The notes under the pieces are model-generated. The model saw only the letters and a list, made by a program, of their open reading frames with translations, had not been told where the DNA came from and did no database searches. This document shows, in pieces, positions 14,720-38,201 of a stretch of 64,000 nt of DNA. The position numbers and the translations under genes were made by a program. Position 1 is the stretch's first letter. Every line of letters starts with the position of its first letter. This DNA is from Anabaena sp. FACHB-1237 (GTDB lineage: Bacteria > Cyanobacteriota > Cyanobacteriia > Cyanobacteriales > Nostocaceae), in the NCBI RefSeq assembly GCF_014696225.1, contig NZ_JACJPV010000020.1:1-64000 (forward strand), given 5' to 3'.

Positions 14720-14825
14720 AATATTCCTTTGCGCCTAACGCACTGAAAGTGCTTCGCTAATGCGTCTTTGCGCGAAACCAGAATCAAAATGTGGTTCATG
14801 TACCTGAAAATTGCTGTAAACTGTA

Positions 14826-14854
14826 GGGTGCGTTATACTATCGTTAACGCACCT
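14826..14854 (+). repeat. GTGCGTTA palindrome
   Basis: GGTGCGTTA faces TAACGCACC across 9 bases. It is related to 13611, to 16333-16372 and to the GGTGCGTCAGA palindromes at 38893 and 47342. Confidence 0.6.
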
Positions 14855-14884
14855 TAATCATATTCAAAATTCAAAACTATCAGT

Positions 14885-17274: not shown

Positions 17275-17453
17275 TCTTAACTCCTTGCATGATCAAATAT
17301 TAAGAATTATAAATTAATATTCATCAATAGTAAAGTTATGTAAACTTTCCCCTGACTATTGTTAACTGCTGATCATTGAACGTGGCTGTGAATGAAAAAA
17401 CAGATCCCAGTCATTTTAAGATTATTTCCCAGATAGACCCGAAAACTACCCCT

Positions 17454-19223: not shown

Positions 19224-19409
19224 AAACTGGGAGTCGGGAATTAGTAAAATTAGTCGCTTTTAACCAACTTCAGCTTTTAGACAGGGAATTTATCCCGTAG
19301 CTAGTGTTAGGAGTGGGGAATTACTAAAAACCATAGCCCGACTGGGGATTCCTCTGTCTAATAATTTTTCGCCGACTCCCGACTCCCCACTACACTAATA
19401 CATAATAAT

Positions 19410-20348: not shown

Positions 20349-20795
20349 TTTACAATTCTTTTTTCCTATCACCTCTCACCTTTAACCTGTAAAGTTACTG
20401 GGAAATTTTTTGCCAAATTTTGTCGAATTTTCAGGAAACTACTATTTTCCTTCTGTATATATAACTGTGCAGTTTATAAACACGGTCATTATTAGTAGTA
20501 TCTTTATACTTAGTGATAAAGATAACTACTATGGTTTTGGTAATTGGTGATATTAACCAAGATAACAAATTAGAAGTAGTCTCGTCAAGAGGTTGATTCA
20601 CGGTCAGTTGAACTATAGAATTCAGGAGCAAGATTAATTAAAATTGTATTTTCTTAAACTAGTACAAAGTTTTCTTTCATAATTGTAGTAAAAAACTAAG
20701 TCCCGATATTTTTATCGGAAATTACGGAATATTAGATTAACTGATCGTAAATTAAGCTAACCGCAATCTGTTATTACCTGGAGCAATGAATATTT
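20349..20795. other. Upstream region of sigC
   Basis: No gene. TCCCGAT-ATTTT-TATCGGA at about 20701-20718 forms a small hairpin about 75 bases before the sigC start and could be a leader-RNA feature. The minus-strand frame at 20431-20631 looks like chance. Confidence 0.4.
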
Positions 20796-22064
20796 ATGCA
20801 AGCAGCATCTTTTTATACAAATCCTATCTATGATGGTGAAAATTCTCACCAATCTTTAGATACTGACATCAGTATTATTGATGATACGGATATAATTGAT
20901 GTATCAGATATATCTTTGGAAAATTTGCAGGAATTGGATATCACTGCGGTTGAACCAAACGTAGAAGCTCAAGTAAGTAAACGCAGTACAGACTTAGTGC
21001 GTTTGTATTTACAGGAAATCGGTAAAGTTAGGTTGTTAGGAAGGGATGAAGAAGTTTCAGAAGCTCAAAAAGTACAGAGGTACTTAAAGCTGCGGTCTGT
21101 ATTAGCTAATGCAGCTAAACAAGGAGATGAGGTACTTATTCCTTATCTAAGATTAATTGAGGTGCAGGAACGTCTAGCTTCTGCTTTAGGACATCGGCCA
21201 TCTTTGGAAAGATGGGCAAAAGAGGCTGATGTAAAATTAGTTGATCTTAAACCAACTTTATCAGAAGGTAAACGAAGATGGGCGGAAATTGCTAAGTTAA
21301 AATTGGAAGAATTGGAACAAATTCAATCTGAAGGTTTACACGCAAAATCTCAAATGATTAAGGCGAATTTACGCCTAGTAGTATCTGTTGCGAAAAAATA
21401 TCAAAATCGTGGTTTAGAACTGCTTGATTTAGTACAAGAAGGTACTTTAGGATTAGAGCGAGCAGTGGAGAAATTTGATCCAACTAAGGGGTATAGATTT
21501 AGCACCTATGCTTACTGGTGGATTCGTCAGGGTATTACGAGGGCGATCGCTACATCCAGTAGAACTATACGTTTACCTGTACATATTACAGAAAAACTGA
21601 ATAAAATCAAGAAAGCACAGAGAAAAATTGCCCAGGAAAAGGGTCGCACTCCTACGTTAGAAGACTTAGCTATTGAGTTAGAAATGACACCCATTCAAGT
21701 GCGAGAAGTTTTATTAAGAGTACCGCGTTCGGTATCATTAGAAACTAAAGTTGGCAAAGATAAAGATACGGAATTAGGGGAATTATTAGAAACTGATACC
21801 GTAACCCCGGAAGAAATGCTCATGAGAGAATCTTTACAAAAAGATTTACTCAACCTATTAGCAGACTTAACCAGTAGGGAAAGGGATGTAATAGCAATGA
21901 GGTTTGGGTTAGCAGACGGTCATCCTTATTCATTAGCGGAAATTGGTCGAGCGTTGGATCTATCCAGAGAGAGAGTCAGACAAATTGAGTCTAAGGCATT
22001 ACAAAAATTGCGTCAACCCAAACGACGTAATTTAGTACGGGATTATTTAGAATCTTTAAGTTAG
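20796..22064 (+). CDS. sigC: Group 2 RNA polymerase sigma factor, SigC type
   Basis: 422-aa sigma-70-family factor that directs RNA polymerase. Region 1.2 is STDLVRLYLQEIGKVRLLGRD-like (about 64-85). Region 2 contains KANLRLVVSVAKKYQNRGLE and FSTYAYWWIRQGITRAI. Region 3 is PVHITEKLNKIKKAQRKI, and region 4 ends with SLAEIGRALDLSRERVRQIE. The variable acidic N-terminus (about 60 aa) and overall match fit SigC; in Anabaena sp. PCC 7120 sigC lies next to furA, as here. Group 2 factors are non-essential and act under nitrogen, carbon or light stress. A GGGTTTAGC-ATGA-GCTAAACCC hairpin follows at about 22085. Confidence 0.92.
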   Translation: MQAASFYTNPIYDGENSHQSLDTDISIIDDTDIIDVSDISLENLQELDITAVEPNVEAQVSKRSTDLVRLYLQEIGKVRLLGRDEEVSEAQKVQRYLKLRSVLANAAKQGDEVLIPYLRLIEVQERLASALGHRPSLERWAKEADVKLVDLKPTLSEGKRRWAEIAKLKLEELEQIQSEGLHAKSQMIKANLRLVVSVAKKYQNRGLELLDLVQEGTLGLERAVEKFDPTKGYRFSTYAYWWIRQGITRAIATSSRTIRLPVHITEKLNKIKKAQRKIAQEKGRTPTLEDLAIELEMTPIQVREVLLRVPRSVSLETKVGKDKDTELGELLETDTVTPEEMLMRESLQKDLLNLLADLTSRERDVIAMRFGLADGHPYSLAEIGRALDLSRERVRQIESKALQKLRQPKRRNLVRDYLESLS

Positions 22065-22082
22065 GAGTTCAAGGAGTCAGTA

Positions 22083-22106
22083 GGGGTTTAGCATGAGCTA
22101 AACCCA
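22083..22106 (+). terminator. Hairpin between sigC and furA
   Basis: GGGTTTAGC-ATGA-GCTAAACCC is a perfect 9-bp stem, but followed by A's rather than T's, so its role as a terminator on the plus strand is uncertain. Similar GGTTTAGC/GCTAAACC hairpins are at 26655 and 47163. Confidence 0.45.
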
Positions 22107-22190
22107 AAACTTCACACTCTCCACCTCAGACACTAGTAAATATTCTCAATAAGAAATGACTATTGCAAATAAAGTGCAAAATTTGTTATA

Positions 22191-22217
22191 TTCTCAATTA
22201 ATAGGCTTTGTTGAGAA
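22191..22217 (+). promoter_or_regulatory. Interrupted palindrome upstream of furA
   Basis: TTCTCAA at 22191-22197 faces TTGAGAA at 22211-22217, ending 8 bases before the furA ATG. FurA is known to bind its own promoter in Anabaena, so this AT-rich dyad is a candidate operator, but it does not match a classical Fur box well. Confidence 0.35.
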
Positions 22218-22225
22218 AATTTAGT

Positions 22226-22681
22226 ATGACTGTCTACACAACTACTTCACTTAAGGCAGAACTAAACGACCGAGGTTGGCGTTTAACTCCTCAGCGCGAA
22301 ACTATTCTACATATTTTTCAAGACCTACCACAAGGTGAACATCTCAGCGCAGAGGATCTTCATCATCGCTTAGAACAAGATGGAGAAGGTATTAGTTTAT
22401 CCACTATTTACCGTACTCTCAAGCTAATGGCTAGAATGGGAATTTTGCGAGAATTGGAGTTGGGTGAAGGTCATAAACACTATGAAATTAATCAACCTTA
22501 TCCCCATCATCACCACCATTTAATTTGTGTACGTTGTAATTCGACTATTGAATTTAAAAATGACTCAATTCTGAAAATTGGGGCGAAAACAGCACAAAAA
22601 GAAGGTTTCCACTTGCTAGACTGTCAAATGACGATTCATGCTATTTGTCCTCAGTGTCAAAGATCCTTAGTTCCTGTATAA
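22226..22681 (+). CDS. furA: Ferric uptake regulator, FurA
   Basis: Iron- (and heme/redox-) responsive repressor of the Fur family. The frame opens at 22208, but the ATG at 22226 gives MTVYTTTSLKAELNDRGWRL, the expected N-terminus (151 aa). The winged helix contains TPQRETILHIF and ISLSTIYRTLKLMARMGILR. The metal site region has the His run PYPHHHHHLICVRC, and two CxxC motifs (CVRC, CPQC) occur as in cyanobacterial FurA. Genetic context with sigC supports FurA rather than Zur or PerR. In Anabaena 7120 an antisense RNA from the downstream gene covers furA; no such gene is visible here. Confidence 0.92.
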   Translation: MTVYTTTSLKAELNDRGWRLTPQRETILHIFQDLPQGEHLSAEDLHHRLEQDGEGISLSTIYRTLKLMARMGILRELELGEGHKHYEINQPYPHHHHHLICVRCNSTIEFKNDSILKIGAKTAQKEGFHLLDCQMTIHAICPQCQRSLVPV

Positions 22682-23148
22682 TCGTGCTGTTGGATATGGT
22701 CATATTCTATTTAAGCTGTTGATCTTATTTACTTACAACATAATCTAACATACTCTAACTATCAATGTTTGGTTGTATTAGTGTGGGAATCTGCTTATAT
22801 TCGAGGAGGAGTTTTATAATATGGTTTATTTTACTAAATCCTATTATAATTTTCCACCTTTAATATCTCTGAATGCGTCTTAATGGTTTTTTGGTATCAT
22901 CTGCCATAGTATCGTTGATACGACTTTTCTAAAAAGTCTATTTTTGCACTATTTGTTGTAGTTATAGCATAGTAAAATCACTGTCTGGTGATGTTTTGAA
23001 TAAGTTGTATAATTTATCACAAATAATGATATTTGCTTGATTAGTAATTTCTAGCTTGTGTTGTTTTTTTGAAAGCAAGTCACAGAGTGAACTTGAAAAC
23101 AAAAACAACACGCTGTAATTAACTGTTCTTATAAAACGTGCACTGATG
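22682..23148. other. Intergenic region downstream of furA
   Basis: No intact gene. GTATCATCTG and GTTGATAC around 22890-22920 make a weak dyad. Two MITE-like repeats follow directly at 23149 and 23269. Confidence 0.4.
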
Positions 23149-23264
23149 TGCTGCGAATTGGGGTATGATATTTATTTCGCGTATCAGCGAAGCGAAGGAC
23201 TTGCATTAGACGCAAAGTTTCAAATTTTGAAGTTCTCAATTTCATACTTGAGTTCAGCAACGCC
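23149..23264 (+). repeat. MITE-like element, family C, copy 1
   Basis: Runs from TGCTGCGAATTGGGGTATGA to TCATACTTGAGTTCAGCAACG; the ends are imperfect inverse copies. The second copy is at 63175-63290 and shares GGGGTATGATATTTATTTCG and CAGCGAAGCGAA. Confidence 0.75.
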
Positions 23265-23268
23265 AGAG

Positions 23269-23372
23269 TAAGCTGTTGTGCTTTTAACTTGAATAATTAA
23301 TACAAGCAAGATGCTTGTGCTACTGTAACTTTAGGTTTTTTAATTATACAGTGAGTGCTGCACATTAGCTTA
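23269..23372 (+). repeat. MITE-like element, family B, copy 2
   Basis: 104 bp, TAAGCTGTTGTGC to CACATTAGCTTA. It lies 4 bases after family C copy 1, forming a compound repeat. Confidence 0.85.
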
Positions 23373-23420
23373 TGATTATTTTCTGATGACTAAAGTGGGT
23401 TTATAGCTGAAAGCCGATAA

Positions 23421-26400
23421 TTATTTACTCTCAATAGCTGCTTCCGCTTGATGCACAAGGTTTCGCAGATTTTCCAGTGTTTGCTGATCCACATTTTCCC
23501 ACAAATTGCGCTGATTTGCTTCTAATAATCTTTCTGCAATATCTCGCAAAGCCCAAGGGTTATGATCATGGATAAATTCGCAAACTACAGGATCTTCCAG
23601 ATATGCTTCAACTATACCCTGATATATATGATCCTCGACACATTGGGCGGTAGCATCATACCCGAATAAAAAGTCCACCGTTGCGGCCATTTCAAACGCC
23701 CCTTTGTAACCATGACGCATAACTCCTGCTATCCACTTGGGGTTGATGACACGAGAGCGATAAACCCTGTTAATTTCTTCTTGTAATTGGCGAATTTTCG
23801 GACTAGAAGTGTTGGAATTATCGCCAAAGTAGGTTTTGGGGTTTTTTCCCTGTAAAGAGCGTACAGCAGCCGTTAAACCCCCTTGGAATTGATAATAGTC
23901 ATCAGAATCAAGTATGTCATGTTCGCGGTTATCCTGATTATGGAGAACAATTTGCATTTGTGCTAAACGTTGTTTAAATACTTCAATATTCTCTGTTCCC
24001 TGTTCCGGGTTCCCTGTTCCCTGAGAATAGGCGTAACTACTCCAATTAATGTATGCTTGTGCTAAATCTTCATCACTTTGCCAATTTTGAGAATTGATTA
24101 AACCTTGAATACCTGTACCATAGGTTCCTGGTTGAGAACCAAAAACACGATATTGCGATCGCTCAACCGCATCATCTAAACTTAAACCTTGTTCTATCCA
24201 TAAATCAGTGTCTTGTGTAACCGCTAACGCAATAGGATTTTCTTCTGTAGGTTCATCTAAATTTGCAACTGCTGTTACTGCTTGGGAAAATAAATCAATT
24301 AAATTGGGGAAAGCATCACGGAAAAACCCAGAAATTCTTAAAGTCACATCTACGCGAGGGCGGCCAAGAATAGATAATGGTAAAATTTCAAAATCTACTA
24401 CTCTGCGTGCTGCTCCATCCCATACAGGTCTAACTCCAATTAAAGCTAATGCTTGAGCAATATCATCTCCGCCAGTTCGCATGGTAGCAGTACCCCACAC
24501 TGACAAGCCGATGGTTTGAGGGTATTCGCCATGTTCTTGGGTATAGGTTTCTATAAGAGCATCTGCGGCTTTTCTACCGATATCCCAGGCCGTTTCTGTG
24601 GGTAAAGCACGAATATCTACAGAATAGAAGTTTTTACCAGTGGGTAGAACTTCAGGACGACCGCGTGTAGGTGCGCCTGACGCTGCACTAGGAATATATT
24701 TACCTTCTAAACCGCGTAATAAATTATTAATTTCCTCCGGTGTATTTTGTAATGCAGGTAAAAGTTTTAATTCTATCCATTGTAAACATTCTCTTAAAGG
24801 TTTGTAGTTGAGCGTTAGCTCCTCTTTTTCTATAATTTTTCCTACCAAAAAAGCAGCTTCTTCTTCTAATAATTGAATTACATCTCCGACGATATGACAA
24901 GATTTTATTTTCACGCAGAGACGGGGAGACACAGAGAGGGTTTTGGGAGGAATAAATGGGGTTTTGAGATTAGTTGTTAAAGGATCAAATTCGAGGTTCC
25001 AATCTTGAGCAATTGCTCTTGTAATTCCGATAGAATGACGGTTAGGAATACGAGATATAGCTACTATTAAATCTCTTAGTTGTCTATCTTTTGGGGTTTG
25101 TCCAAAAATATGTAAACCATCGCGTATTTGTGTTTCTTTGAGTTCGCACAAATAACCATCTAGGGAGTTTAAAAGTAAATCTTCTCTATTTTCAATTCCT
25201 AAATCTTTGTAGAGATTTTCTTGAATCACTATTTCTTCAATGCGTTTTTTGATCATGGACATTCTACCAGGATCTAAACTTTCTGCTTCATAATATTCAT
25301 CAATTAAATTTTCTACCTGTTGTAAAGCTCCATAAAGTTCTGCTCTAGTCATAGGGGGAGTTAAGTGATCAATAATCACAGCTTGAGAGCGTCTTTTTGC
25401 TTGTGAACCCTCCCCAGGATCATTAACAATAAAAGGATATAAATGTGGAGTCGGTCCAATGGCTATTTCTGGATAACAAGTATTAGATAAAGCCACACTT
25501 TTACCAGGAAGCCACTCTAAATTACCGTGTTTTCCTACATGAATAATTGCATCTGCTGAAAAACATTTTCTTATCCAATGATAAAAAGCTAAATAATGAT
25601 GTGTTGGTTCTAAGTCTGGAGCGTGGTAATTTAAACTGGGATCTAAATCATAGCCCCTTGATGGTTGAATACCTACAAAAATATTACCAAATTCAATACC
25701 AGAAATAGGAATTGATGATTGATGAAATTCTGATTTATTCACTATTCCCCATCTTTCAATAATTGCATCTTGAATTGTTTGGGGTAAAGTGGCAAAATAT
25801 TCTTGATATTCTGTAATTTCTAAACTTTGATTGACTATTTTCCAATCTTTACTTTCAGGATCATTTGTGACACCAACTGTTAAACTGCGAATTAGTGCAT
25901 CACTATCTAATGGAATATCATCTAATTTATAACCTGCTAATTTTAATGCTTTGAGAATTTCCACACAACTAGCTGGCGTATCTAAACCCACACCATTAGC
26001 TAAACGTCCATTAGTATTGGGATAGTTGGCTAAAATTAACGCTATACGACGGTTCTCTGGTGGTTTTTGGCGAAGTTTTACCCAATTAGCTGCTAGTTTA
26101 GCAATAAAGTTGATGCGATCGCTCACTGGTTCATAAACTACTACATCCGTCTCTAACTGATCATTGCGACTTTGCAAACTCTTAAAAGACACAGCACGGG
26201 TAATAATTCGACCATCAACCTCTGGTAAAACCACATTCATAGCCATATCACGGGGAGTTAAACCTTGTAAACTATTTTCCCACTGTTCTTGAAAACCACC
26301 ACTACAAATTACTTGAAATACAGGTACATTCAACTTTTCCCATAATTCAATCTCAGGAATTTCTGTCTCTAAACGTGCTAAGGAAAAACTAGTAGTATTT

Positions 26401-27254
26401 AATAAGACGCTGATATGTTCATCATTTTCTGGCTGAAATATATCATATAAACTTTGAGAAACTCCATTTTCACGTAAGGAAGATACATATACTGGTACAG
26501 GTTGTAATCCTTGTGCTGCAATAGCATGACATAAAGCGTCCATTACTTTAGTATTACCTGCTAAATAGTGAGCACGGTAAAAAAGAATACCGACACGAGG
26601 TAAGGATTGAGAATGTTCGTTATTTGGGTTTATTGTTGTTAAATCAGGGTGTAGCATTGCTAAACCCCTACTAAATACTGAGTGCTGACTGCTGACTGCT
26701 GATAGCTGATAGCTATATAAACCAACACGAGGAATTATTTGAGGAGGTAAAGGATTAAATTTAGTGGAAAAACAATTATCACAAATAAACAGCAAACCAT
26801 TGATAAAATTTTCTACTCCTCCCTCTTGAAAGTACCGCCAAATCTGGTACACAATGTTTTCAGCTAGAGTAGATTTAGACATTAAACCGGCATCTAAGCC
26901 ATCATCACCAGGTATTACAATAAGAGACGTACCATATCGGCTGACTATTTCCTGTGCCACTTCCAAACCATAACTCCAGTAACCACTACCTCCTAACAAT
27001 CTTAATACAATTACTTGAGCAGATTCTAATACTTGTTCTGCATAAGCATCTATCGTTATTTGCTGTTGCAATTGTAACAAGTTAGCTACTCTTAGTTGCG
27101 GAAATTCTGGCGGTAGTTGAGGAACTACACAAGTTAAAGTTTGAATATCCGTATCCGCAGCCGTTATAAATATTAAAGGTGCGCTAGTTTGTTCTAAAAA
27201 AAACAAACCATTTGATTGATTCCATCCACCTCCGGTTGCGTTTATACGGTGCAT
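23421..27254 (-). CDS. cobN: Cobaltochelatase subunit CobN
   Basis: 1277-aa large subunit that inserts cobalt into the corrin ring in the aerobic-type cobalamin pathway. It is related to Mg-chelatase ChlH, but motifs such as HVGKHGNLEWLPGK, NDPGEGSQAKRRSQAVIIDH, GLSVWGTATMRTGGDDIAQ and the end VMRHGYKGAFEMAATVDF fit CobN. Three places hold short segments that look like translated genomic repeats: YSYQLSAVSSQHSVFSR (about residues 179-195; DNA about 26670-26720), PKTLSVSPRLCVK (DNA about 24915-24955) and SQGTGNPEQGTENIE (DNA about 23985-24027). The frame stays open throughout. The gene stands alone; no cobalamin riboswitch was recognised upstream. Confidence 0.93.
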   Translation of the reverse strand: MHRINATGGGWNQSNGLFFLEQTSAPLIFITAADTDIQTLTCVVPQLPPEFPQLRVANLLQLQQQITIDAYAEQVLESAQVIVLRLLGGSGYWSYGLEVAQEIVSRYGTSLIVIPGDDGLDAGLMSKSTLAENIVYQIWRYFQEGGVENFINGLLFICDNCFSTKFNPLPPQIIPRVGLYSYQLSAVSSQHSVFSRGLAMLHPDLTTINPNNEHSQSLPRVGILFYRAHYLAGNTKVMDALCHAIAAQGLQPVPVYVSSLRENGVSQSLYDIFQPENDEHISVLLNTTSFSLARLETEIPEIELWEKLNVPVFQVICSGGFQEQWENSLQGLTPRDMAMNVVLPEVDGRIITRAVSFKSLQSRNDQLETDVVVYEPVSDRINFIAKLAANWVKLRQKPPENRRIALILANYPNTNGRLANGVGLDTPASCVEILKALKLAGYKLDDIPLDSDALIRSLTVGVTNDPESKDWKIVNQSLEITEYQEYFATLPQTIQDAIIERWGIVNKSEFHQSSIPISGIEFGNIFVGIQPSRGYDLDPSLNYHAPDLEPTHHYLAFYHWIRKCFSADAIIHVGKHGNLEWLPGKSVALSNTCYPEIAIGPTPHLYPFIVNDPGEGSQAKRRSQAVIIDHLTPPMTRAELYGALQQVENLIDEYYEAESLDPGRMSMIKKRIEEIVIQENLYKDLGIENREDLLLNSLDGYLCELKETQIRDGLHIFGQTPKDRQLRDLIVAISRIPNRHSIGITRAIAQDWNLEFDPLTTNLKTPFIPPKTLSVSPRLCVKIKSCHIVGDVIQLLEEEAAFLVGKIIEKEELTLNYKPLRECLQWIELKLLPALQNTPEEINNLLRGLEGKYIPSAASGAPTRGRPEVLPTGKNFYSVDIRALPTETAWDIGRKAADALIETYTQEHGEYPQTIGLSVWGTATMRTGGDDIAQALALIGVRPVWDGAARRVVDFEILPLSILGRPRVDVTLRISGFFRDAFPNLIDLFSQAVTAVANLDEPTEENPIALAVTQDTDLWIEQGLSLDDAVERSQYRVFGSQPGTYGTGIQGLINSQNWQSDEDLAQAYINWSSYAYSQGTGNPEQGTENIEVFKQRLAQMQIVLHNQDNREHDILDSDDYYQFQGGLTAAVRSLQGKNPKTYFGDNSNTSSPKIRQLQEEINRVYRSRVINPKWIAGVMRHGYKGAFEMAATVDFLFGYDATAQCVEDHIYQGIVEAYLEDPVVCEFIHDHNPWALRDIAERLLEANQRNLWENVDQQTLENLRNLVHQAEAAIESK

Positions 27255-27596
27255 ATTTTTATGTTATCGCCTTTTTTAGTCTTCTGCAATCTACATTTTA
27301 TCAGAAATCACCATATTCATGTACAGAGTGGAGAGCATCAATTACTGAAAAATTTTAGATATGAGATCATATAATCAATCTACAATCATAAAGATTGGGC
27401 TATTAGTAACGAGTAATCAGCTTTCATCTATGGGTAGATAGATTTTCTATCAAATCATAGTTTTGCCAAATTCTATCATGATTGATGGACAACAGATTAA
27501 ACTCAAACTGGAGACAAATTTACAGGCTGATATTTTTGTTTTTAGCCTTTTGCTGAATGCTTACCTACAATCTAAAATTCAAAATCCAAAATCCAA
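27255..27596. other. Intergenic region between cobN and the histidine kinase
   Basis: Both genes are read outward. No gene and no recognisable riboswitch. The short direct repeat AAAATTCAAAATCCAAAATCC at about 27575 lies immediately before the kinase start. Confidence 0.4.
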
Positions 27597-29504
27597 ATGT
27601 TTATTTCTCCCGATTTGGGATTTTCTCATACCGTACCTGTAAGTATATTCGATCAACTGGGCGAATTGCTACAACAGATGGCTACATTAGTTATTACGGA
27701 TGCTGTAGTATTAACAGATGCTTTACTCGCTCCCGTTTTTTCCCCTAGAGATTGGCAAGATAAAAGATTTATCTTGGTAATATCTCACGGATTTACAGCT
27801 TTATTACTAGGAAAAATACCACCCAGTCAACAAGATAATCTATATGTGAATTTGGATGTAAATTTTACCTTTAATCTACAAGCGATAAATTCCTTTATAT
27901 CAGAATTAGCGGAATTATTTACAACTAACTCTCTGACTTGTCAAAAACTTCATCAATATTCTGAAGTTATTGGTAATCATGATGCTAATTTACAAAGTGA
28001 ATTTACATTATTATTGTTAGAATATTTACTCAAACAACCAGAGATAACAATTAGTCAGAAAACTCATACAGTAGATAATACAAATACTAATTTTACCTGT
28101 CAAATTGTGGAAGATATTCTCAAAAAACAAATAGCCCAGGAACAACTTTTAAATCATGTGACATCCCAAATCAGAAAAAGTTTAGATTTATCAGTAATTA
28201 TCAATACTGCAATTAGTCAAGTGCGGGAATTTTTAAAATTAGATAGATTAGTAATTTATAAATTTGTACCAGCAAAAATTATTGTTGAAAGTGTGGAAAT
28301 TTCTGATAATTCATTTGATGACAAAGATAATAGTTATGTTATTTATGAATCTCTTGGTTCAGAAATACCTTCTGTTTTGAATATTCAACAAGAATCTTGT
28401 TTTTTCCCTCTCCCATATTGTTACGATAAATATTTGCAAAATTTCACATTAGTAGTAGATGATATCGAAAAAACTTACATTTTGGAAACTTGTCTTTTAG
28501 AATTTTTAAGAAATATTCAAGTGCGGGCTAAATGTGCTATACCAATAATATTTGAAAACAAACTTTGGGGGTTATTAATTGCCCATCAATGTTATATACC
28601 ACGACAATGGCATCAAGGAGATATAAAGTTACTAACTTCTATAGCTGAACAATTAGCTATAGCTATTTATCAAACTGAATTAATGACATCTTTAAAAGTA
28701 GCTACGGAAATATTAAAACAGGAAAAAGAAACCTTAGAACAAAGGGTAATTGAACGTACAATGGCGTTAAGAGAAGCCCTATTAGCAGCAGAAGCAGCAA
28801 GTCGTGTTAGAAGCGAATTTTTAGCCACAATTAGCCATGAATTATTAACTCCTTTAACCTATGTTATTGGTATGTCTTCCACATTATTAAAATGGCCATT
28901 AGGAGAATTAAGTCAACGACAGAGAAATTATTTACAAACTATTCATGATAGTGGAGAACATTTATTAGAGATGATTAATGATATTCTTGATTTATCACAA
29001 ATTCAAGCAGGAAAAACAGTTTTAAATATTGAACGATTTTCATTAATTAAAGTTGCCCAAAATTCATTAAGCTGTGTTAAAGATAAAGCTAAGGAGAAAA
29101 ATATTACTTTAGAACTTGATTTACAAATTAATCCTACACAAGATGAATTTACAGGAGATGCTACTAGAATGGAACAAATTATTTGGAATTTATTAACTAA
29201 TGCTATTAAATTTACTCCAGAAAATGGTACTGTAATTTTACGTTTGTGGATAGAAGATAATACCGCAATTTGGCAAGTAGAAGATACCGGAATTGGTATT
29301 CCTGAAGATAAATTAACCTTATTATTTGAGAAGTTTCAACAGTTAGATACTCCCTATCGTCGCAATTATCAAGGTACTGGTTTAGGTTTAGCTTTAACTA
29401 AGCAATTGGTAGAGTTACATCGTGGCCGCATTGAGGTAGAATCTACTGTAGGTATTGGTTCAGTTTTTACTGTGTGGATACCAAATCAAGTTAAGAATGG
29501 GTGA
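27597..29504 (+). CDS. GAF-domain sensor histidine kinase
   Basis: 635-aa soluble hybrid-type sensor kinase. An N-terminal domain of about 170 aa, common to several cyanobacterial kinases (LVITDAVVLTDALLAPVFSP), is followed by a GAF domain (about 195-370: SLDLSVIINTAISQVREFL to LLTSIAEQLAIAIYQTEL), a coiled coil, the H-box TISHELLTPLT (phosphorylated His at about residue 413) and an HATPase domain with N-box EQIIWNLLTNAIKF, G1 VEDTGIGIP and G2 GTGLGLAL. The Arg usual in HELRTP is Leu here. The GAF domain has no obvious DxCF Cys for a bilin. No response regulator is adjacent. Confidence 0.9.
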   Translation: MFISPDLGFSHTVPVSIFDQLGELLQQMATLVITDAVVLTDALLAPVFSPRDWQDKRFILVISHGFTALLLGKIPPSQQDNLYVNLDVNFTFNLQAINSFISELAELFTTNSLTCQKLHQYSEVIGNHDANLQSEFTLLLLEYLLKQPEITISQKTHTVDNTNTNFTCQIVEDILKKQIAQEQLLNHVTSQIRKSLDLSVIINTAISQVREFLKLDRLVIYKFVPAKIIVESVEISDNSFDDKDNSYVIYESLGSEIPSVLNIQQESCFFPLPYCYDKYLQNFTLVVDDIEKTYILETCLLEFLRNIQVRAKCAIPIIFENKLWGLLIAHQCYIPRQWHQGDIKLLTSIAEQLAIAIYQTELMTSLKVATEILKQEKETLEQRVIERTMALREALLAAEAASRVRSEFLATISHELLTPLTYVIGMSSTLLKWPLGELSQRQRNYLQTIHDSGEHLLEMINDILDLSQIQAGKTVLNIERFSLIKVAQNSLSCVKDKAKEKNITLELDLQINPTQDEFTGDATRMEQIIWNLLTNAIKFTPENGTVILRLWIEDNTAIWQVEDTGIGIPEDKLTLLFEKFQQLDTPYRRNYQGTGLGLALTKQLVELHRGRIEVESTVGIGSVFTVWIPNQVKNG

Positions 29505-30606: not shown

Positions 30607-30835
30607 CAGTAGTTTTGGGCATTCAGTATTCGGTTTAAAATGTAAATTAATCTTTAAGAAATGTATCATAAAGATGATCACCATTTGACAATTACTTGGA
30701 AGTACAAATATAATTAGCAATTATATATCAATGGTTAGAGGTTAGAGAAAACCCCACTAAACTTTGACAACAGCATAATTTCGTTCACCAGTGGTTATTC
30801 CTTACACATTAAGGATTTTAGATGGAAAATGAATC
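30607..30835 (+). repeat. Diverged copy of the CRISPR leader-like sequence, without an array
   Basis: Shares long blocks with 36390-36545 and 37800-37970: GGCATTCAG, TTAAGAAATGTATCA, TTGACAA, TAGCAATTATATATCAA, ACAGCATAATTTCGTT and TGGTTATTCCTTACACATTAAGG. It stops about 25 bases before the first gene of the radical-SAM operon, in the place where an array would start. Confidence 0.7.
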
Positions 30836-30861
30836 ATTTATTGTAATATTTTGTGACATTC

Positions 30862-31587
30862 ATGAATGCTTATTTACTAAGAACTTTAGTCATAGCCTGT
30901 TTGACACTCACTATGGTAGGACAACCTGTTCTTGCCCAAAATTCCCCCAATTCTCAATCAACCTCTAAACCTACTCAAACTTCAGACTGTGTTCCTTTTC
31001 CTCCAGGAATAAATTCGCTCGCTTTACTAAGACTACCCCAAGTACAAACAGAACTTCAGATCACGAAATTACAAGTTGCCGAATTAACTAAGCTAGAATC
31101 AATATTGAAACAAAAATTTACTGGCTTATATACCTCTTTACAATCTCGTCCATGGACTGACGAGAGAAAAAAGAAGTTTTTTGAAGAAGTTCAACAAGTA
31201 TCTCAAGAAAACAGTGGTCAACTTAACGAAATTTTACAACCTCGTCAGTTTACCCGCTTGAAGGAAATTATGCTTCAGGTATATGGATGGCAAAGTCTTA
31301 ACCAAGAAGAAACTGTGAGCTTGCTAAATCTAAGTGAAGATCAACAAAATCAACTGAGAAAGATTAGTCAAGAAACCAATCAAAAGGCTTTTAAAATGTT
31401 TGAATTTCCTGCCACGAATAGTCCTCAAAGCTGTAATAAGGTGATGACAAGCAATAAAAAACGCCTGGATCAACTCAGGCAAAAAAGCCAAAAACAAGCT
31501 GATGCTATTCTCTCTCAAAAACAGCAACAATTGTTAAAGATTTTAAAAGGAAAACCTTTTACTATCGATCTCACCTTAATTAATTAA
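30862..31587 (+). CDS. Secreted helical protein, Spy/CpxP-like
   Basis: The frame opens at a GTG at 30853, but the ATG at 30862 gives MNAYLLRTLVIACLTLTMVG then QPVLAQ, a clear signal peptide with an AxA-type cleavage site. The mature protein (about 215 aa) is nearly all helical, Gln/Lys/Leu-rich, with two repeats of an 'xLxLSExQ.xxLxxIxxE' type (LQITKLQVAELTKLESILK; LNLSEDQQNQLRKISQE) that resemble LTxxQ periplasmic proteins. Role unknown; envelope stress or binding of an exported compound is possible. First gene of a five-gene operon; the leader-like repeat lies directly upstream. Confidence 0.7.
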   Translation: MNAYLLRTLVIACLTLTMVGQPVLAQNSPNSQSTSKPTQTSDCVPFPPGINSLALLRLPQVQTELQITKLQVAELTKLESILKQKFTGLYTSLQSRPWTDERKKKFFEEVQQVSQENSGQLNEILQPRQFTRLKEIMLQVYGWQSLNQEETVSLLNLSEDQQNQLRKISQETNQKAFKMFEFPATNSPQSCNKVMTSNKKRLDQLRQKSQKQADAILSQKQQQLLKILKGKPFTIDLTLIN

Positions 31588-31658
31588 ATGGTACTAAATT
31601 AAATGGTACTAATGGCGAACTAAATCAATAACACTATAAAGAGGAGAAAAAGTTATTT

Positions 31659-32672
31659 ATGACTACCATTCAAAAAGATGCCTTAGAAATTAAAAATCTC
31701 ACCAATTCTGAATTATTGGAACTTTTAACTGCCGAGGGAGAATTACAACAATGGTTATGGCAAAAAGCACGAGAAACTCGCCAAACCCATTTAGAGAACC
31801 AAGCAGTTGTTAGAGGAGTGATTGAAATTTCCAACTATTGCCAGAAAAACTGTGATTACTGTGCAATCAGAGCAGTTAACACTCAGATAGAACGATACCG
31901 ATTCACTGCAGAAGAAATTTTAGCAATTGCCCAACAAATTGCCGAAGCACATATTCCTATAGTCTTTTTACAAGCGGGACAAGATCCCCAATGTGATCCC
32001 ATTTTAGAAGAGGTGATTCCCGAAATTAAACGTCGTTTTAATGTCAACATCCTACTTTGTTTAGGAGAACGTCCCAAAGCCGTTTATGAAAGATTTGCCG
32101 AACTGGGAGCGAACTCTTATATTTTAAAATTTGAGTCTTCTAACCCTGAGTTATACAAACAAATTGCCCATACTTCCTTAGAAAAGCGACTGCAATGCGC
32201 CCGATGGATTCAGGAAGCTGGCTTAAAGTTAGGAACAGGTAATATTGTGGGATTACCGCATCAAACCCTCGATATGCTCGTAGATGACATTCGTTTAGCC
32301 TTAGAGATTAACCCAGATTTTGTTAGTTCTTCCCCATTTATACCCAATCAGAATACCCCCTTAGAATCCTTGCCCTATGGGAATCTGAACTATACATTAA
32401 ATACGATGGCCATTTATCGAATAGCCTTGAAAACACCCTTAATCCCTACAGTGAGTGCTCTGGAGAAAATTCAGCCAGGGGGTCAACTTATGGGATTTAA
32501 TGCCGGAGCTAACGTGATTACTATAAACTTTACTCCACAAGATTTTCAAGAAAAATACCTTATTTATTCCCAAAAACGTTTTGTAGTCAGATTAAACCAT
32601 GCTTTGGAAACCCTACATCAAGCGGGTTTAAAAGTAGAAAAATTAATCACTCAAAATTATCAAGCCAACTAA
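31659..32672 (+). CDS. BioB/HydE/PylB-like radical SAM enzyme
   Basis: 337-aa radical SAM protein. The cluster-binding motif is C-x3-C-x2-C in NYCQKNCDYCAIR (about residues 59-71), followed by the biotin-synthase-type barrel: RYRFTAEEILAIA, IVFLQAGQDP, NILLCLGER and LKFESSNPELYKQI, with TGNIVGLPHQT later. The Cys of the BioB auxiliary cluster are not apparent, and the overall pattern is nearer HydE/PylB (methylornithine synthase-like) than biotin synthase. Substrate unknown. AGAGGAG precedes the ATG. The stop is one base before the next gene's ATG, implying coupled translation. Confidence 0.85.
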   Translation: MTTIQKDALEIKNLTNSELLELLTAEGELQQWLWQKARETRQTHLENQAVVRGVIEISNYCQKNCDYCAIRAVNTQIERYRFTAEEILAIAQQIAEAHIPIVFLQAGQDPQCDPILEEVIPEIKRRFNVNILLCLGERPKAVYERFAELGANSYILKFESSNPELYKQIAHTSLEKRLQCARWIQEAGLKLGTGNIVGLPHQTLDMLVDDIRLALEINPDFVSSSPFIPNQNTPLESLPYGNLNYTLNTMAIYRIALKTPLIPTVSALEKIQPGGQLMGFNAGANVITINFTPQDFQEKYLIYSQKRFVVRLNHALETLHQAGLKVEKLITQNYQAN

Positions 32673-32673
32673 C

Positions 32674-33774
32674 ATGATTAAACGATTAAAGATCAGTCGA
32701 GAATTCTTATTAACTATCTTGTCATTAACTTTTTTGCTAGTGTCACTTCTCTCTCCCATCATTATTCATGCTCAGGAACCAAAATCACGGACAATTAAAG
32801 AAATTAAGATCAACTCCAAAACCTCTTTAGTTCACTTGGGTAGTATAGATTCTTTTGATATTACTGAAGGGGGAGTTGAAGCAGGAAAATTCTTGTTCAA
32901 TGCCTTGGAAACTGGCAATAATGATTCTGCCCAAGCTGCTAGTAAAATTTATGATCGGATCATTCCTTTAGAAAATTATGGAGGAGAATATACAGCCCTT
33001 CAATGGTTTGCCAAATATCTGTTAGCTTCTAATAGTGAAAAAGAGAAAATCCTCGCGGACAAATATCATCGAGAATTTTTTAACTTCTGGGCTGAAAATA
33101 ATTTTGCCAACCTCAAAGAGTATATTCAACGTAAGTATAAACTCAAAGAATTTGAGGATGGAAAGACTTTTAAAGGTCAGTCGAGAATATCGTTCCTAGA
33201 AGACTTTATTCTCTTCAATAATCCTCGCCGAGAAGAATGGGAAAAGACCAGCAAGATTATGCAGGTTTTAAATCTCAAGCCAGGAATGCGAATTGCAGAT
33301 ATTGGCAGTGGTCCGGGATACTACACCTTTAAATTTTCTGAAGCTGTTGGACCAAATGGGAAAGTATTCGGTATAGACACTGTCAAAGACCACGTTAATT
33401 TTGTCAGTAAGGTAGCCAGTAAATACAAGCTCAATAACATTGATTTTGTCTATTTGCCAAAAGCAGATAACATTGGCGTGGCCGAAAATCAGGTAGATTT
33501 GGCTTATATGTGTTCTCTATATCACATTATCTATACCGTCACCCTGCAAGAAGTGCAAGAACGCTACTTGAATAGCCTGAAAAAAGCCCTCAAGCCAGAT
33601 GGTCGCTTTGTAGTTGTGGATAACGCCTTGGTAGAAAAAGGAACGCTGCCCTATCATGGTCCTTACATAGCCAAGGAATTGGTAATTTCTCAATTAGAAC
33701 AGTATGGTTTTCGCCTGGAAAAAGAATATCAATTCATTCCCCAAAGATATATTTTAATCTTCAAAAAAGCCTAG
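32674..33774 (+). CDS. Class I SAM methyltransferase with an N-terminal signal/anchor
   Basis: 366 aa. Residues about 8-33 form a hydrophobic segment (LLTILSLTFLLVSLLSPIII then HAQEP) that looks like a signal peptide or membrane anchor. The methyltransferase domain begins near residue 190: motif I is IADIGSGPGYYTFKF, with VFGIDTVKDHVNFV following, then PDGRFVVVDNAL as motif III. An extra N-terminal domain of about 150 aa (EGGVEAGKFLFNALETGNND) has no recognised function. An enzyme using cytosolic SAM with an export signal is odd; it may be anchored with the domain inside the cell. It begins one base after the radical SAM gene. Confidence 0.8.
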   Translation: MIKRLKISREFLLTILSLTFLLVSLLSPIIIHAQEPKSRTIKEIKINSKTSLVHLGSIDSFDITEGGVEAGKFLFNALETGNNDSAQAASKIYDRIIPLENYGGEYTALQWFAKYLLASNSEKEKILADKYHREFFNFWAENNFANLKEYIQRKYKLKEFEDGKTFKGQSRISFLEDFILFNNPRREEWEKTSKIMQVLNLKPGMRIADIGSGPGYYTFKFSEAVGPNGKVFGIDTVKDHVNFVSKVASKYKLNNIDFVYLPKADNIGVAENQVDLAYMCSLYHIIYTVTLQEVQERYLNSLKKALKPDGRFVVVDNALVEKGTLPYHGPYIAKELVISQLEQYGFRLEKEYQFIPQRYILIFKKA

Positions 33775-33785
33775 GACCGAAAGCA

Positions 33786-34670
33786 ATGGATTTTAGAGTC
33801 ATTGGTATCTCTGCTGCACTGGGTTCATCCGCATCATGGGCGGTTGGTTCAATCCTCTTTAAGCGATTGGGGGAAAAGTTATCACCCCTAGGGATGACTC
33901 TGGCCAAAGGAGGGGTCAGCGTGGTTTTCCTAGCTTTAGCTCTACTGGTTACTGGCTATAATCAGGTTGACCATCAATCCTTGTTTTTACTAATTTTAAG
34001 CGGCTTGTTAGGAATTTCTATCGGGGATACGTTATTTTTTGAGGCTTTGCAAGATATAGGAGCGCATTCACTGATTTTATTAACGACCTTTGGTGAGGTC
34101 TTAACTATTATCCTTGCGGTGATTTTCCTGAAAGAACAACCCACCCCTCAACAGTGGGTAGGAATTGTCTCAGTTTTATTGGGAATTGCCCTGGTACTCC
34201 ATAGCAAAATTACCAATGACTCTCAAAAATCCCAGTTCAAATGGAGAGGAATTATCATCGGTTTGCTCTCAGTGATTTGTATGTCTGTGTCCCTGATTAT
34301 TGCTAAACAGGGTTTGGCTTCTCTGTCAGCTATTCAAGCAACTTTTATTCGGATGCTATCAGGAACAGTGGGGATGTTCGGTTTTGGCTTGGTTACTCAA
34401 CGATTAGGAAAATGGATGAATCCTTTTGAGGATCGCGCTTTAATCGCCAGGTTCTTAATCGCAGTAGCAGTTGTCACCTTTGGCGGCTTCTGGTTGTCCT
34501 TGGTGTCTCTCAAATATATTGATGTTGCCATTGCCAATATACTCAGTTCTACTGAACCCCTTTTTGTACTACCCCTGGCTGCCATTTTTCTCAAGGAGAA
34601 AATCACCACTCAAGCATTAATTGGCAATTTTGTGGCAGTGTTCGGCATTATTTTAATTTGTACTCCCTGA
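33786..34670 (+). CDS. DMT/EamA-family transporter
   Basis: 294-aa inner-membrane protein with about ten helices in two EamA repeats. Repeat 1 ends at FLKEQPTPQQWVGIVSVLLG and repeat 2 ends at FLKEKITTQALIGNFVAVFG, the internal duplication typical of the family. Such proteins export amino acids, nucleosides or small metabolites. In this operon it is the natural candidate for exporting (or importing) the compound made by the two radical SAM enzymes and the methyltransferase. GGACCGAAAGC precedes the ATG; spacing to the previous gene is 11 bases. Confidence 0.88.
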   Translation: MDFRVIGISAALGSSASWAVGSILFKRLGEKLSPLGMTLAKGGVSVVFLALALLVTGYNQVDHQSLFLLILSGLLGISIGDTLFFEALQDIGAHSLILLTTFGEVLTIILAVIFLKEQPTPQQWVGIVSVLLGIALVLHSKITNDSQKSQFKWRGIIIGLLSVICMSVSLIIAKQGLASLSAIQATFIRMLSGTVGMFGFGLVTQRLGKWMNPFEDRALIARFLIAVAVVTFGGFWLSLVSLKYIDVAIANILSSTEPLFVLPLAAIFLKEKITTQALIGNFVAVFGIILICTP

Positions 34671-34730
34671 GCTACTCATTAAAAATTCTCAAAATCCTTA
34701 ATTTTATCTTGTGAAAAGGAGATTAAATCA

Positions 34731-36197
34731 ATGGTTAATGTTCTTCATAGTCATTCCTTACCAACAGTTCGTCGTAGAGATATCCTGGAAAAAGCCCAAG
34801 CAAGATTAGAAGATTTCCAACGATTAAAAGCCGCAGGGTTGCTATGTGAATCTGGAGACTTTTTCCCCTCGGTTCACTATCCTCCCATTACTATGTATCC
34901 TGAAATGACAGAGGAAGAAATCTTTAAAGATTATACTCTGCCAGAAGATGGGATGTTTGATATTTATGTTCATATTCCCTTCTGTCGTCGTCATTGCACT
35001 TTTTGTCATTATCCCGTTGTTACAGGAGCATCCAATGACGAGAAATCTTACTATCTCCAAGCCTTGGAAAAAGAAATGGACATTTATATGAAACGCTTGG
35101 GGATTGACAAAATTAAGGCTAGATCAATTTTGATTGGGGGAGGAACACCTACCTATCTGACTCTGGAACAACAAAAGTATTTTTTTGATTTCTTTGTGGA
35201 ACGCGTGGATCTTTCAGAGTGTAGCCAGTTTAACTATGATGTAGATCCTGTAACATTAATTGGCTCGGAAGGCATTCAGCGATTAGAGATGATGAAGTCC
35301 TACGGAGTAGATCGTCTCACCATTGGGGTTCAATCTCTCAATGATCGCGTGTTGAAATTAATGAACCGCCATCATGGTTCTAAGGAAGCTCTGGAAGCTA
35401 TTGCCCTGTGCCATGCTATGGGATATCAACTGGATATTGAGTTTATTTTTGGCTATCCTGGACAAAATTTAGACAATTGGATCGAAGTAATGGAACAAGC
35501 TGTTACTTTAGATGTGGAGGAGATCCAGCTTTATCGTCTCAAAATTGAGGCTTACGGAGATTTCCAAGGTGTGATCAAAAAAGTTACCGAAGTTCGTCCT
35601 GAAGATATTCCCACTAATGAAGATGCAATTATGATGAAACAAATTGCCATCGAAATCCTCAATGAAAATGGGTATCATGAAAATCTGCGACGGGTATTCA
35701 CCAAAAAACGAGAACACTACTCCTGCTATGCTGATAACCAATGCTGTGGCTTACTCGATCAGGTGGGCTTTGGGCAAACGGCTTTTAGCAGTCTCCGTAA
35801 TCGCTTTGTACTCAATACCCAAGATTTTGATGAGTACTATACCAAAGTTGCTGCTGGGCAACTACCTTTAAATCGGGGTTATGTGAGAACTCCTGAAGAT
35901 CAAGCGCGTTGGGCAGTTATTCTTCCTTTGAAAAATCGCTGTGTTTGGAAAGGCTATTTTACTCAAGTCACTGGTGGGGCTTCTCTTAATGAGGTATTTG
36001 GGGAAAAAATTGAGGCATTAAAGTCTTTTGGATTGTTGGAAGAAGATTCAGATAAAATTCAGTTAACACGCCTGGGTGCTTTCTTTGCTGATGAAGTTGC
36101 CCAGCAGTTCCATCATCCTAATTATATGCCCTTCCCCTCGGAGGCTTATACCCAAGGAATGCTTCATCCTTGTAAGCATCAACCTAGATTTCCATAA
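34731..36197 (+). CDS. HemN/HemW-like radical SAM enzyme
   Basis: 488-aa radical SAM protein of the coproporphyrinogen III oxidase-like family. The [4Fe-4S] motif is C-x3-C-x2-C in YVHIPFCRRHCTFCHYP (about residues 79-95). Further family marks are SILIGGGTPTYLT, VDRLTIGVQSLNDRVLKLMN and DIEFIFGYPGQ, and a C-terminal HemN domain ending in a winged region with TRLGAFFADEVAQQF. The N-terminal extension (about 75 aa) is longer than in HemW, and an extra Cys pair NQCCGLL is present. HemN-like class C enzymes can be methyltransferases or cyclopropanases as well as heme enzymes, so function is open. Strong AAAGGAG precedes the ATG by 9 bases. Confidence 0.85.
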   Translation: MVNVLHSHSLPTVRRRDILEKAQARLEDFQRLKAAGLLCESGDFFPSVHYPPITMYPEMTEEEIFKDYTLPEDGMFDIYVHIPFCRRHCTFCHYPVVTGASNDEKSYYLQALEKEMDIYMKRLGIDKIKARSILIGGGTPTYLTLEQQKYFFDFFVERVDLSECSQFNYDVDPVTLIGSEGIQRLEMMKSYGVDRLTIGVQSLNDRVLKLMNRHHGSKEALEAIALCHAMGYQLDIEFIFGYPGQNLDNWIEVMEQAVTLDVEEIQLYRLKIEAYGDFQGVIKKVTEVRPEDIPTNEDAIMMKQIAIEILNENGYHENLRRVFTKKREHYSCYADNQCCGLLDQVGFGQTAFSSLRNRFVLNTQDFDEYYTKVAAGQLPLNRGYVRTPEDQARWAVILPLKNRCVWKGYFTQVTGGASLNEVFGEKIEALKSFGLLEEDSDKIQLTRLGAFFADEVAQQFHHPNYMPFPSEAYTQGMLHPCKHQPRFP

Positions 36198-36229
36198 AAC
36201 AGACAAGGAGGAGAAATAAGCTATTATTT

Positions 36230-36308
36230 AAGCGGCTTGACTGAGGCAGAAATTTAATCTTGGTAACTGATTCCTCCACCTAAATCACCTCGTTTAGCCG
36301 CTTTTAAT
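36230..36308 (+). terminator. Possible operon terminator with long loop
   Basis: AAGCGGCT at 36230 pairs with AGCCGCTT at 36296, followed by TTAATTTT. The loop of about 60 bases is unusually long. An AAGGAGGAG ribosome-binding-site-like sequence lies just before it at 36205 with no gene behind it. Confidence 0.4.
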
Positions 36309-36664
36309 TTTCAGTCAATGATTAACTGCATTATAGCTGATCATATCACATCCAGTAGCATTCAGCAGTCAGCTTGACATGGAAACTAATTGTTAATAAA
36401 TGTATCAAAATCATAATCACTAGTTGACAACTGCCCGGAAAACAGATACTTCTAGCAATTATGTATCAACAATTCGACACCACTCCCCTGAACCTTGAAA
36501 ACCGCATAATCTCGTTGACTGGTGGCGATTCCTTACACAGTAAGGGTTTCAGCCTCAAAAATCTCAGAATTGTTGAGATTTTTCGCCCTTTATTGAGAAT
36601 AAAAAAAGTGGTGTCGAAATGGGGGTCTGAAAGTATTGCTACGCAAGGTTTCCAGAAGGTAGCC
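36307..36664 (+). promoter_or_regulatory. CRISPR leader, copy 1
   Basis: About 360 bp that runs directly into the first CRISPR repeat and is nearly identical to 37732-38087. It contains a hairpin AAAATCTCA-GAATTG-TTGAGATTTTT at about 36556-36582. A 12-base inverse pair, TTCGACACCACT at about 36474 and AGTGGTGTCGAA at about 36607, could fold the central part together. A-rich and promoter-like; direction agrees with arrays read on the plus strand. Confidence 0.75.
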
Positions 36665-36843
36665 CTTTCCTAACCTATTTCCCCGCAAGGGGATGGAAAC
36701 TTTCTATCCCCAATCTCTACGATAAAATTATCCCCACTTTCCTAACCTATTTCCCCGCAAGGGGATGGAAACAGTAAAAGAATTCCCTCGGAAATATATC
36801 GTTTGTGCTTTCCTAACCTATTTCCCCGCAAGGGGATGGAAAC
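36665..36843 (+). CRISPR. Short CRISPR array 1: three repeats, two spacers
   Basis: Three identical 36-base repeats at 36665-36700, 36737-36772 and 36808-36843, starting CTTTCCTAACCTATTT and ending GCAAGGGGATGGAAAC, with the CCCC-GCAA-GGGG hairpin. The spacers are 36 and 35 bases. The end ATGGAAAC fits the 8-base crRNA handle of type I-D/III systems, so transcription is from the leader on the plus strand. No cas genes are in the window. Confidence 0.92.
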
Positions 36844-37250: not shown

Positions 37251-37490
37251 TTAAAGAGTCTCATAAATAGACAAAAATTCTTGACGAGAAATACCAGATT
37301 GATTACAAATACTTCTCAAAGTTGAACCTTTAATTTTTTTATGATTTGGTAAAGTTAAAGGTGTACTTGTACCATCATCATTTTGCCTAATCATAGCAAT
37401 ATGTTCTCTTTCTCTGACTATTGTAAATCCTAATTGCTCTAAAGTTTTAATTACTTTAACTTGAGGAGCATCCACAGGAAATTTAGGCAT
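37251..37490 (-). CDS. hicA: HicA-like toxin (YcfA family)
   Basis: 79-aa small mRNA-interferase-type toxin. The double-stranded-RNA-binding-like fold is seen in VKVIKTLEQLGFTIVRERE then HIAMIRQNDDG, with the catalytic His in REHIAM, and the ending NHKKIKGSTLRSICNQSGIS matches the family's 'vP.H....kGTLR.Ilkqagi' block. It overlaps the stop of the upstream antitoxin by one base, a standard type II pair. Both are read toward the broken vapBC. Confidence 0.88.
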   Translation of the reverse strand: MPKFPVDAPQVKVIKTLEQLGFTIVREREHIAMIRQNDDGTSTPLTLPNHKKIKGSTLRSICNQSGISRQEFLSIYETL

Positions 37491-37708
37491 TATATTACAG
37501 CCTCCACTATGGAAACTTCAAGAATAGGAGAATCAGACTCTAAAACTTCTAAACCAAAAGTTTCAATATGAAATTTTAAAGCAGATTTTACATCAGCTAA
37601 GGCTTCTTCGTAACTATCACCTTCACCAACTACTACCCCTTGCACTCCTATGGGATAAGCAATATAACCATCAGAATGTCTTTCCACTATGATTTTAATA
37701 TCTTTCAT
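37490..37708 (-). CDS. hicB: HicB-like antitoxin
   Basis: 72-aa partner of the HicA toxin. The partial RNase H-like fold is recognisable: IIVERHSDGYIAYPIGVQGV and VVGEGDSYEEALADVKSALK. The C-terminal DNA-binding helix-turn-helix found in longer HicB proteins is missing, as in many cyanobacterial short HicB forms. It is transcribed before hicA, so the antitoxin is made first. Confidence 0.85.
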   Translation of the reverse strand: MKDIKIIVERHSDGYIAYPIGVQGVVVGEGDSYEEALADVKSALKFHIETFGLEVLESDSPILEVSIVEAVI

Positions 37709-37731
37709 AATAGTTTGATTTCGGTAATCTT

Positions 37732-38087
37732 TTTCAGTAAATGATCAACTGCATTATGCCTGATCATATCACATCCATCAGCATTCAGCAGTCAGCTTGA
37801 TATGGAAACTAATTTTTAAGAAATGTATCAAAATCATGATCACTAGTTGACAACTGCCCGGAAAACAGATACTTTTAGCAATTATGTATCAACAATTCGA
37901 CACCACTCCCCTGAACCTTGAAAACCGCATAATCTCGTTGACTGGTGGCGATTCCTTACACAGTAAGGGTTTCAGCCTCAAAAATCTCAAAATTGTTGAG
38001 ATTTTTCGCACTTTATTGAGAATCAAAAAAGTGGTGTAGAAATGGGAGGCTGAAAGTATTGCTACGCAAGGTTTCCAGAAAGTAGCC
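37732..38087 (+). promoter_or_regulatory. CRISPR leader, copy 2
   Basis: Second near-identical copy of the 36307-36664 leader, directly upstream of array 2. The ATCTCA/TGAGAT hairpin is kept (AAATCTCA-AAATTG-TTGAGATTT). The outer inverse pair has one mismatch here (GTGGTGTAGAA). Confidence 0.75.
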
Positions 38088-38201
38088 CTTTCCTGACCTA
38101 TTTCCCCGTAAGGGGATGGAAACTTTGTTTCTTGTGCAAGCCGGTAAGATCCGACTTTCCCTCTGCTTTCCTAACCTATTTCCCCGCAAGGGGATGAAAA
38201 C
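38088..38201 (+). CRISPR. Short CRISPR array 2: two repeats, one spacer
   Basis: The first repeat, 38088-38123, differs from the consensus at two bases (CTGACC, CCCGTAAGG). The second, 38166-38201, ends GGGGATGAAAAC, a degenerate trailer-end repeat. The 42-base spacer is longer than those of array 1. Same repeat and leader as array 1. Confidence 0.85.

Follow-up and report, generated by a model that had tools for sequence, protein, structure and literature searches.

A recurring radical SAM, methyltransferase and transporter cassette in a CRISPR locus of Anabaena sp. FACHB-1237

Organization and origin of the operon

The window analyzed in this work, a stretch of 64,000 nucleotides of Anabaena sp. 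FACHB-1237, carries five adjacent open reading frames on its plus strand, termed here A to E (positions 30853-36197). They encode a probable exported helical protein of the LTXXQ (Spy/CpxP-like) type (A, 30853..31587), a HydE-like radical SAM enzyme with a CX3CX2C cluster motif and an altered substrate pocket (B, 31659..32672), a class I SAM-dependent methyltransferase with an N-terminal signal peptide or anchor (C, 32674..33774), an EamA/DMT transporter (D, 33786..34670), and a HemN-like radical SAM enzyme that is the most conserved member of the set (E, 34731..36197). The five same-strand, tightly spaced genes described in an initial annotation were thus recovered, with intergenic gaps of 71 (A/B), 1 (B/C), 11 (C/D) and 60 bases (D/E). 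Assignment against Pfam and NCBIfam also reproduced its families for B-E, namely a Radical_SAM protein nearest to HydE, a class I methyltransferase, a DMT protein matching EamA (PF00892) twice, and a Radical_SAM protein with a HemN_C domain; none of the four scores high enough for assignment to a named NCBIfam equivalog. The stronger ribosome-binding sites proposed for the operon are found only for B (AGGAG) and E (AAGGAG), and not for A or C.

The description of A as a secreted Spy-like helical protein is supported by its orthologues rather than by the window protein itself, which has no significant match in Pfam or NCBIfam. Two orthologues tested match the LTXXQ family PF07813 (48.6 and 54.1 bits versus a gathering score of 24.3), and the AlphaFold model, built from 11 sequences, is predicted to be all-helical (pLDDT 75.8). 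A Foldseek search with this model gave no significant match. Invariant residues in the alignment of A copies are few and mostly L, Q and G, and the gene has an alternative in-frame start, an ATG at 30862.

The operon is flanked by copies of a CRISPR leader. The first, on the plus strand at 30619-30821, is a diverged copy that shares 71% identity with the leader at 36308-36607. It lacks repeats, and its end is ~30 bases 5' of the operon. Two others, at 36308-36607 and 37731-38030, are followed by three and two repeats, respectively. The three full-size leader copies of the whole genome all lie within this window. The intact leader and its three repeats just 3' of the operon (36308..36843, plus strand) are regarded as genomic context outside the pathway. 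The diverged copy contains a TTGACA-18-TATAAT element on the plus strand (30685-30714), which matches the -35/-10 consensus at 12 of 12 positions and sits ~140 bases before A. This element is the likely operon promoter, so that transcription may start from what was once a leader promoter, as judged by the consensus match. Together with their leaders, the mini-arrays span 36308-36843 and 37731-38201 and consist of 3 and 2 repeats of CTTTCCTAACCTATTTCCCCGCAAGGGGATGGAAAC, and a small HicA/HicB-like gene pair, recognized by eye, is located between them on the minus strand (37251-37708).

The composition of the operon is clearly unlike that of the rest of the window, as had been proposed. Over the five genes, third-position GC content (GC3) amounts to 0.342, versus 0.210 (sd 0.044) for the 36 other genes of the window, and four of the five operon genes exceed every one of these 36. 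By codon-usage likelihood, each of the 36 background genes ranks above C and D; E is the third lowest, and A and B lie in the lower tail. C is present in 5 of 193 Nostocaceae genomes. In the tree of C and E, the window copy clusters with those of Cyanothece and Crocosphaera (Chroococcales) (96/94) and not with the remaining Nostocaceae copies; its long end branch makes the exact placement uncertain. A lipobox in A is absent from the window and Chroococcales copies and present in the other cyanobacterial copies. The composition, the patchy distribution and the tree support the earlier suggestion that the operon was transferred horizontally into this genome. The HIP1 octamer is indeed absent from the operon, but its absence is a weak hint: at 27 copies per 64 kb, an operon of 5.3 kb should contain ~2.3 (P ~0.10), and related cassettes contain 0-2 copies. 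We have therefore rejected it as strong evidence of transfer, although the HIP1-free stretch around the operon (14.3 kb) is mildly unusual (P ~0.03).

Conservation of the cassette in cyanobacteria and Bradyrhizobium

Six loci were obtained when B served as the single query against GTDB contigs, a scan that under-samples the distribution outside cyanobacteria. Five of them are closely related and have the order A-B-C-D with E adjoining: Cyanothece BG0011, Desmonostoc vinosum, a Crocosphaera MAG, an uncultured cyanobacterium and a Nostocaceae MAG (L031-L034 and L036). The complete five-gene set is present in these loci and in L076, where the order A-B-C-D is constant and E is either last or divergent beside A; in the Cyanothece and Crocosphaera loci it is divergent and immediately upstream of A. 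The gene order in one Nostocaceae genome (G009) is that of the window. In a second family (f29), represented by four genomes from a single genus, A, B, C and E are present with no D at the locus, and in one of its genomes (G264) E is found ~135 kb from A-B-C together with an FHA-ABC gene.

Among 390 class-level cyanobacterial genomes, full-length C and full-length E occur in the identical six. The pairwise identities of the five proteins between cyanobacterial copies are correlated (r = 0.82-0.97), and A evolves much faster than the others, with 22-32% identity between copies versus 45-69% for B-E.

A search of plasmids led to Bradyrhizobium sp. ISRA443, along with three sister strains. A single 13.5 kb stretch of the ISRA443 plasmid encodes A (24% identical to the cyanobacterial proteins), C (47%), D (50%), B (29%) and E (59%), and it also includes an ABC ATPase, an FtsX permease, an HlyD adaptor and a divergent amino-acid ABC importer between the cassette genes. 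Even the Bradyrhizobium E proteins are 58-59% identical to their cyanobacterial counterparts. The Bradyrhizobium B protein is placed on a long branch outside the cyanobacterial group in the tree, and because of this position and its 29% identity it may catalyze a different step. The gene set of the plasmid thus argues for a joint function of C, D and E in which an exporter and an enzyme of HydE-like type also take part. The importer within the cassette may hint at an amino-acid precursor. The cassette lies at 14717-28207 of a conjugative plasmid contig (L116), amid glycosyltransferase and polysaccharide genes.

Co-conservation of the five genes, which had been proposed as a check, is therefore strong, both across three lineages of cyanobacteria and in Bradyrhizobium, and the genes are far from being confined to this window. 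The five proteins are all members of large superfamilies, and orphan relatives of HydE and HemN could in principle have come to lie beside unrelated genes by chance. The chance of this is negligible given that the set repeats in two phyla with a shared order in cyanobacteria, correlated divergence and matching presence and absence, and this explanation was rejected. The five genes are a real cassette, which a few distantly related cyanobacteria and a Bradyrhizobium plasmid share in nearly complete form.

Relationships of the radical SAM enzymes B and E

The B protein aligns with Thermotoga HydE (3ciw) over residues 9-309, and it has the CX3CX2C motif and retains the equivalents of E161 and R180. 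Its cluster cysteines C61, C65 and C68 are invariant in all 11 cyanobacterial cassette copies. In contrast, B differs from HydE by T134L, S136C, R159K, M224F, T268V, T269S and M291T, whereas these seven HydE residues are identical in all 25 HydE-type sequences compared. At five of the positions (134, 159, 268, 269 and 291), L, K, V, S and T are present in 11 of 11 cyanobacterial cassette copies. The changed positions presumably line the substrate pocket of HydE. The score of B against the HydE family TIGR03956 (241.7 bits) is below the curated cut-off of 254.6, as is that of the Bradyrhizobium protein (165.7 bits), and the tree separates the cyanobacterial cassette B proteins as their own clade from the group of 25 HydE-type sequences (100/100). 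No HydG match over the cut-off was found in 11 cassette genomes; the control genome G186, which has HydE-type proteins, gave one match above it. A role of B as HydE in H-cluster maturation was rejected due to the absence of HydG, the altered pocket, the score and the separate clade.

Two further types of B-related proteins were observed. In two genomes of one genus (G150, L072 1595-2521; G138, L073 9257-10174), B-like proteins retain few or none of the radical SAM cluster cysteines. Other catalytic positions have been lost as well, yet the reading frames are largely open, with an in-frame stop in one genome match. They fall within the B clade and, on their sequences, are putative pseudo-enzymes or decaying genes. 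In two other genomes (G397, L074 8824-15234; G007, L075 512-6812), another HydE-like enzyme with an intact cluster adjoins genes for an AMP-ligase/carrier/reductase protein, an O-methyltransferase and a TerB-like protein. This is a different gene cluster, possibly a biosynthetic one.

The E protein resembles the HemN group (HemN, HemW, STM4012, ChuW/HutW and NocN) in its layout, with a CX3CX2C motif and a weak HemN_C domain. It scores below all of the subfamily cut-offs, with bit scores of 161 for STM4012 (cut-off 380), 154 for HemW (205), 154 for HemN (325) and 129 for HutW (400), and unlike these enzymes it has its own invariant motifs such as HYPPIT, MNRHH, EAYGD and NQCC. A distant sequence match over residues 71-271 relates it to NocN, a radical SAM methyltransferase. 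Class C radical SAM methylases of this NosN/NocN type are characterized by a second bound SAM and by C-methylation activity.

Modification of peptides is common among radical SAM enzymes, and the enzymes of the cassette might modify an exported protein, perhaps A, instead of a small molecule. This would agree with the position of A next to the enzymes in nearly all copies and with its rapid evolution, as might be expected of a substrate or partner. We consider it improbable: A is an LTXXQ-type protein with no evident core peptide and with the few invariant residues described above, and matches to peptide-modifying SPASM families are marginal for B and absent for E among the families shown. The gaps within the window operon (71, 1, 11 and 60 bases) offer little space in which a precursor could be encoded, and a RiPP pathway with an intergenic precursor was rejected for this reason.

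Methylation, export and proposed function

The methyltransferase C combines an intact methyltransferase motif (ADIGSGPGYY) with a conserved helical domain at about residues 65-180, which contains an invariant ENxGGEY motif in the alignment and is predicted in the model (pLDDT 81.7). The fold search returned generic class I methyltransferases, the nearest being 3dh0, and the score against ArsM (51.4 bits) is below the curated cut-off of 263. All 12 copies of C start with a positively charged N-terminus followed by one hydrophobic segment, with no further transmembrane segment, as judged by hydropathy and charge rather than by a trained predictor; two of them are under a simple transmembrane threshold. 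This agrees with the methyltransferase with signal peptide of the initial annotation. Since a signal peptide or anchor is present on every copy, C is probably extracytoplasmic and its methylation would take place outside the cytoplasm. SAM is made in the cytosol, and therefore C would need it supplied.

The location of C also bears on a comparison with CC-1065 biosynthesis, in which a HemN-like radical SAM enzyme, C10P, and a methyltransferase, C10Q, act together (PMC6050322). By analogy, E and C could build a cyclopropane or C-methyl group on a precursor made by B, and the match of E to NocN would fit such chemistry. This is very doubtful, as E is under the cut-off of every HemN-type subfamily, and C is predicted to be outside the membrane while E is not, which makes a joint enzyme unlikely. 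The C10P/C10Q system is moreover described as two-component, with neither a HydE-like enzyme nor an exported methyltransferase included in that description (PMC6050322).

The D gene directly follows C in every copy that has D, including Bradyrhizobium. The best NCBIfam match of D, which falls short of the cut-off, is to a carboxylate/amino acid/amine transporter. The f29 genomes have no orthologue of D, their paralogues being at most ~30% identical, and because D is absent at this locus it is not indispensable.

Dedicated exporters are linked to the cassette in several lineages. An FHA-ABC2 transporter (~810 residues) adjoins it in four Nostocaceae genomes and adjoins E in all four f29 genomes, where its gene and the 3' end of E share ~23 bases and the two stay together even when E is separated from A-B-C. 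The cassette-linked FHA-ABC2 proteins form one clade (100/98), apart from the unlinked copies of the same genomes and of the genome studied here. In the Cyanothece and Crocosphaera loci, genes for HlyD, a permease and an ATPase are found beside E. The HlyD/FtsX permeases are ~370-418 aa in Chroococcales versus 790 aa in Bradyrhizobium, and due to this difference in build the two systems look like independent recruitments. No such ABC exporter gene accompanies the window copy, whose genome contains only FHA-ABC of the unlinked type.

These linked exporters in Bradyrhizobium and Chroococcales would leave D free for another task, namely that of a SAM/SAH carrier supplying C in the periplasm while the product exits by a separate route. 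The export signal on all copies of C, the cytosolic origin of SAM and the placement of D immediately 3' of C in both phyla are consistent with such a carrier, and an EamA protein of Rickettsia has been characterized as a SAM antiporter (PMC5615194), a parallel of function within a common superfamily. We regard this role of D as possible, if somewhat unlikely: C is present without a D orthologue in the f29 genomes, and EamA substrates are many, with the sub-threshold match noted above pointing to other compounds. That the periplasmic methyltransferase of a mobile radical SAM pathway has its own SAM carrier, giving rise to a methyl-donor pool outside the cytoplasm, is a rather speculative extension that we do not favor.

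Our preferred reading, to which we give about an even chance, is that the cassette is a horizontally moving unit that makes and exports a small molecule and methylates it outside the cytoplasm. B (HydE/PylB-type) and E (HemN-type) would act in the cytosol, performing radical chemistry on a precursor, possibly an amino acid or a derivative. The product would cross the membrane by a partner exporter, D in the window copy and the FHA-ABC2 or HlyD/FtsX system elsewhere, and C would then methylate it on the outer face of the membrane. A would serve as a periplasmic helper of the Spy type, and D would either export the product or carry SAM to C. Points that weigh against this reading are the f29 genomes without D, the divergent B of Bradyrhizobium, the window copy with no ABC exporter beside it, and the two copies of C under the transmembrane threshold. 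The synthesis and secretion of a modified small molecule, as suggested in the initial annotation, is still something that we infer, and it is strengthened because dedicated exporters are linked to the cassette. The probable extracytoplasmic location of C, the frequent ABC exporter, the dispensability of D in one lineage and the position of the operon in a CRISPR locus are additions to that annotation.

The earlier statement that no described pathway has this gene set agrees with a limited search of open-access full texts (for HydE-like with HemN-like enzymes, STM4012, HydE homologues and cyanobacteria), which revealed no relevant pathway. The cassette is compact, cross-phylum and apparently undescribed; it predicts a new exported metabolite and provides context for radical SAM enzymes of HydE-like and HemN-like type that are orphans in oxygenic or aerobic bacteria.

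The cassette also raises a testable general question, namely how SAM is supplied outside the cytoplasm to methyltransferases with signal peptides, which are found in many cyanobacteria. These class I enzymes resemble C in having a hydrophobic N-terminus and ~30% identity to its C-terminal half, and differ from it in being mostly ~250-280 residues long and lacking the helical domain. Matches to C at E <= 1e-15 are present in 58 of 390 genomes, the six cassette genomes included. A second methyltransferase with a signal-like N-terminus, ~30% identical to C, is encoded in the genome studied here on another contig (C34, L120 4727-5527).
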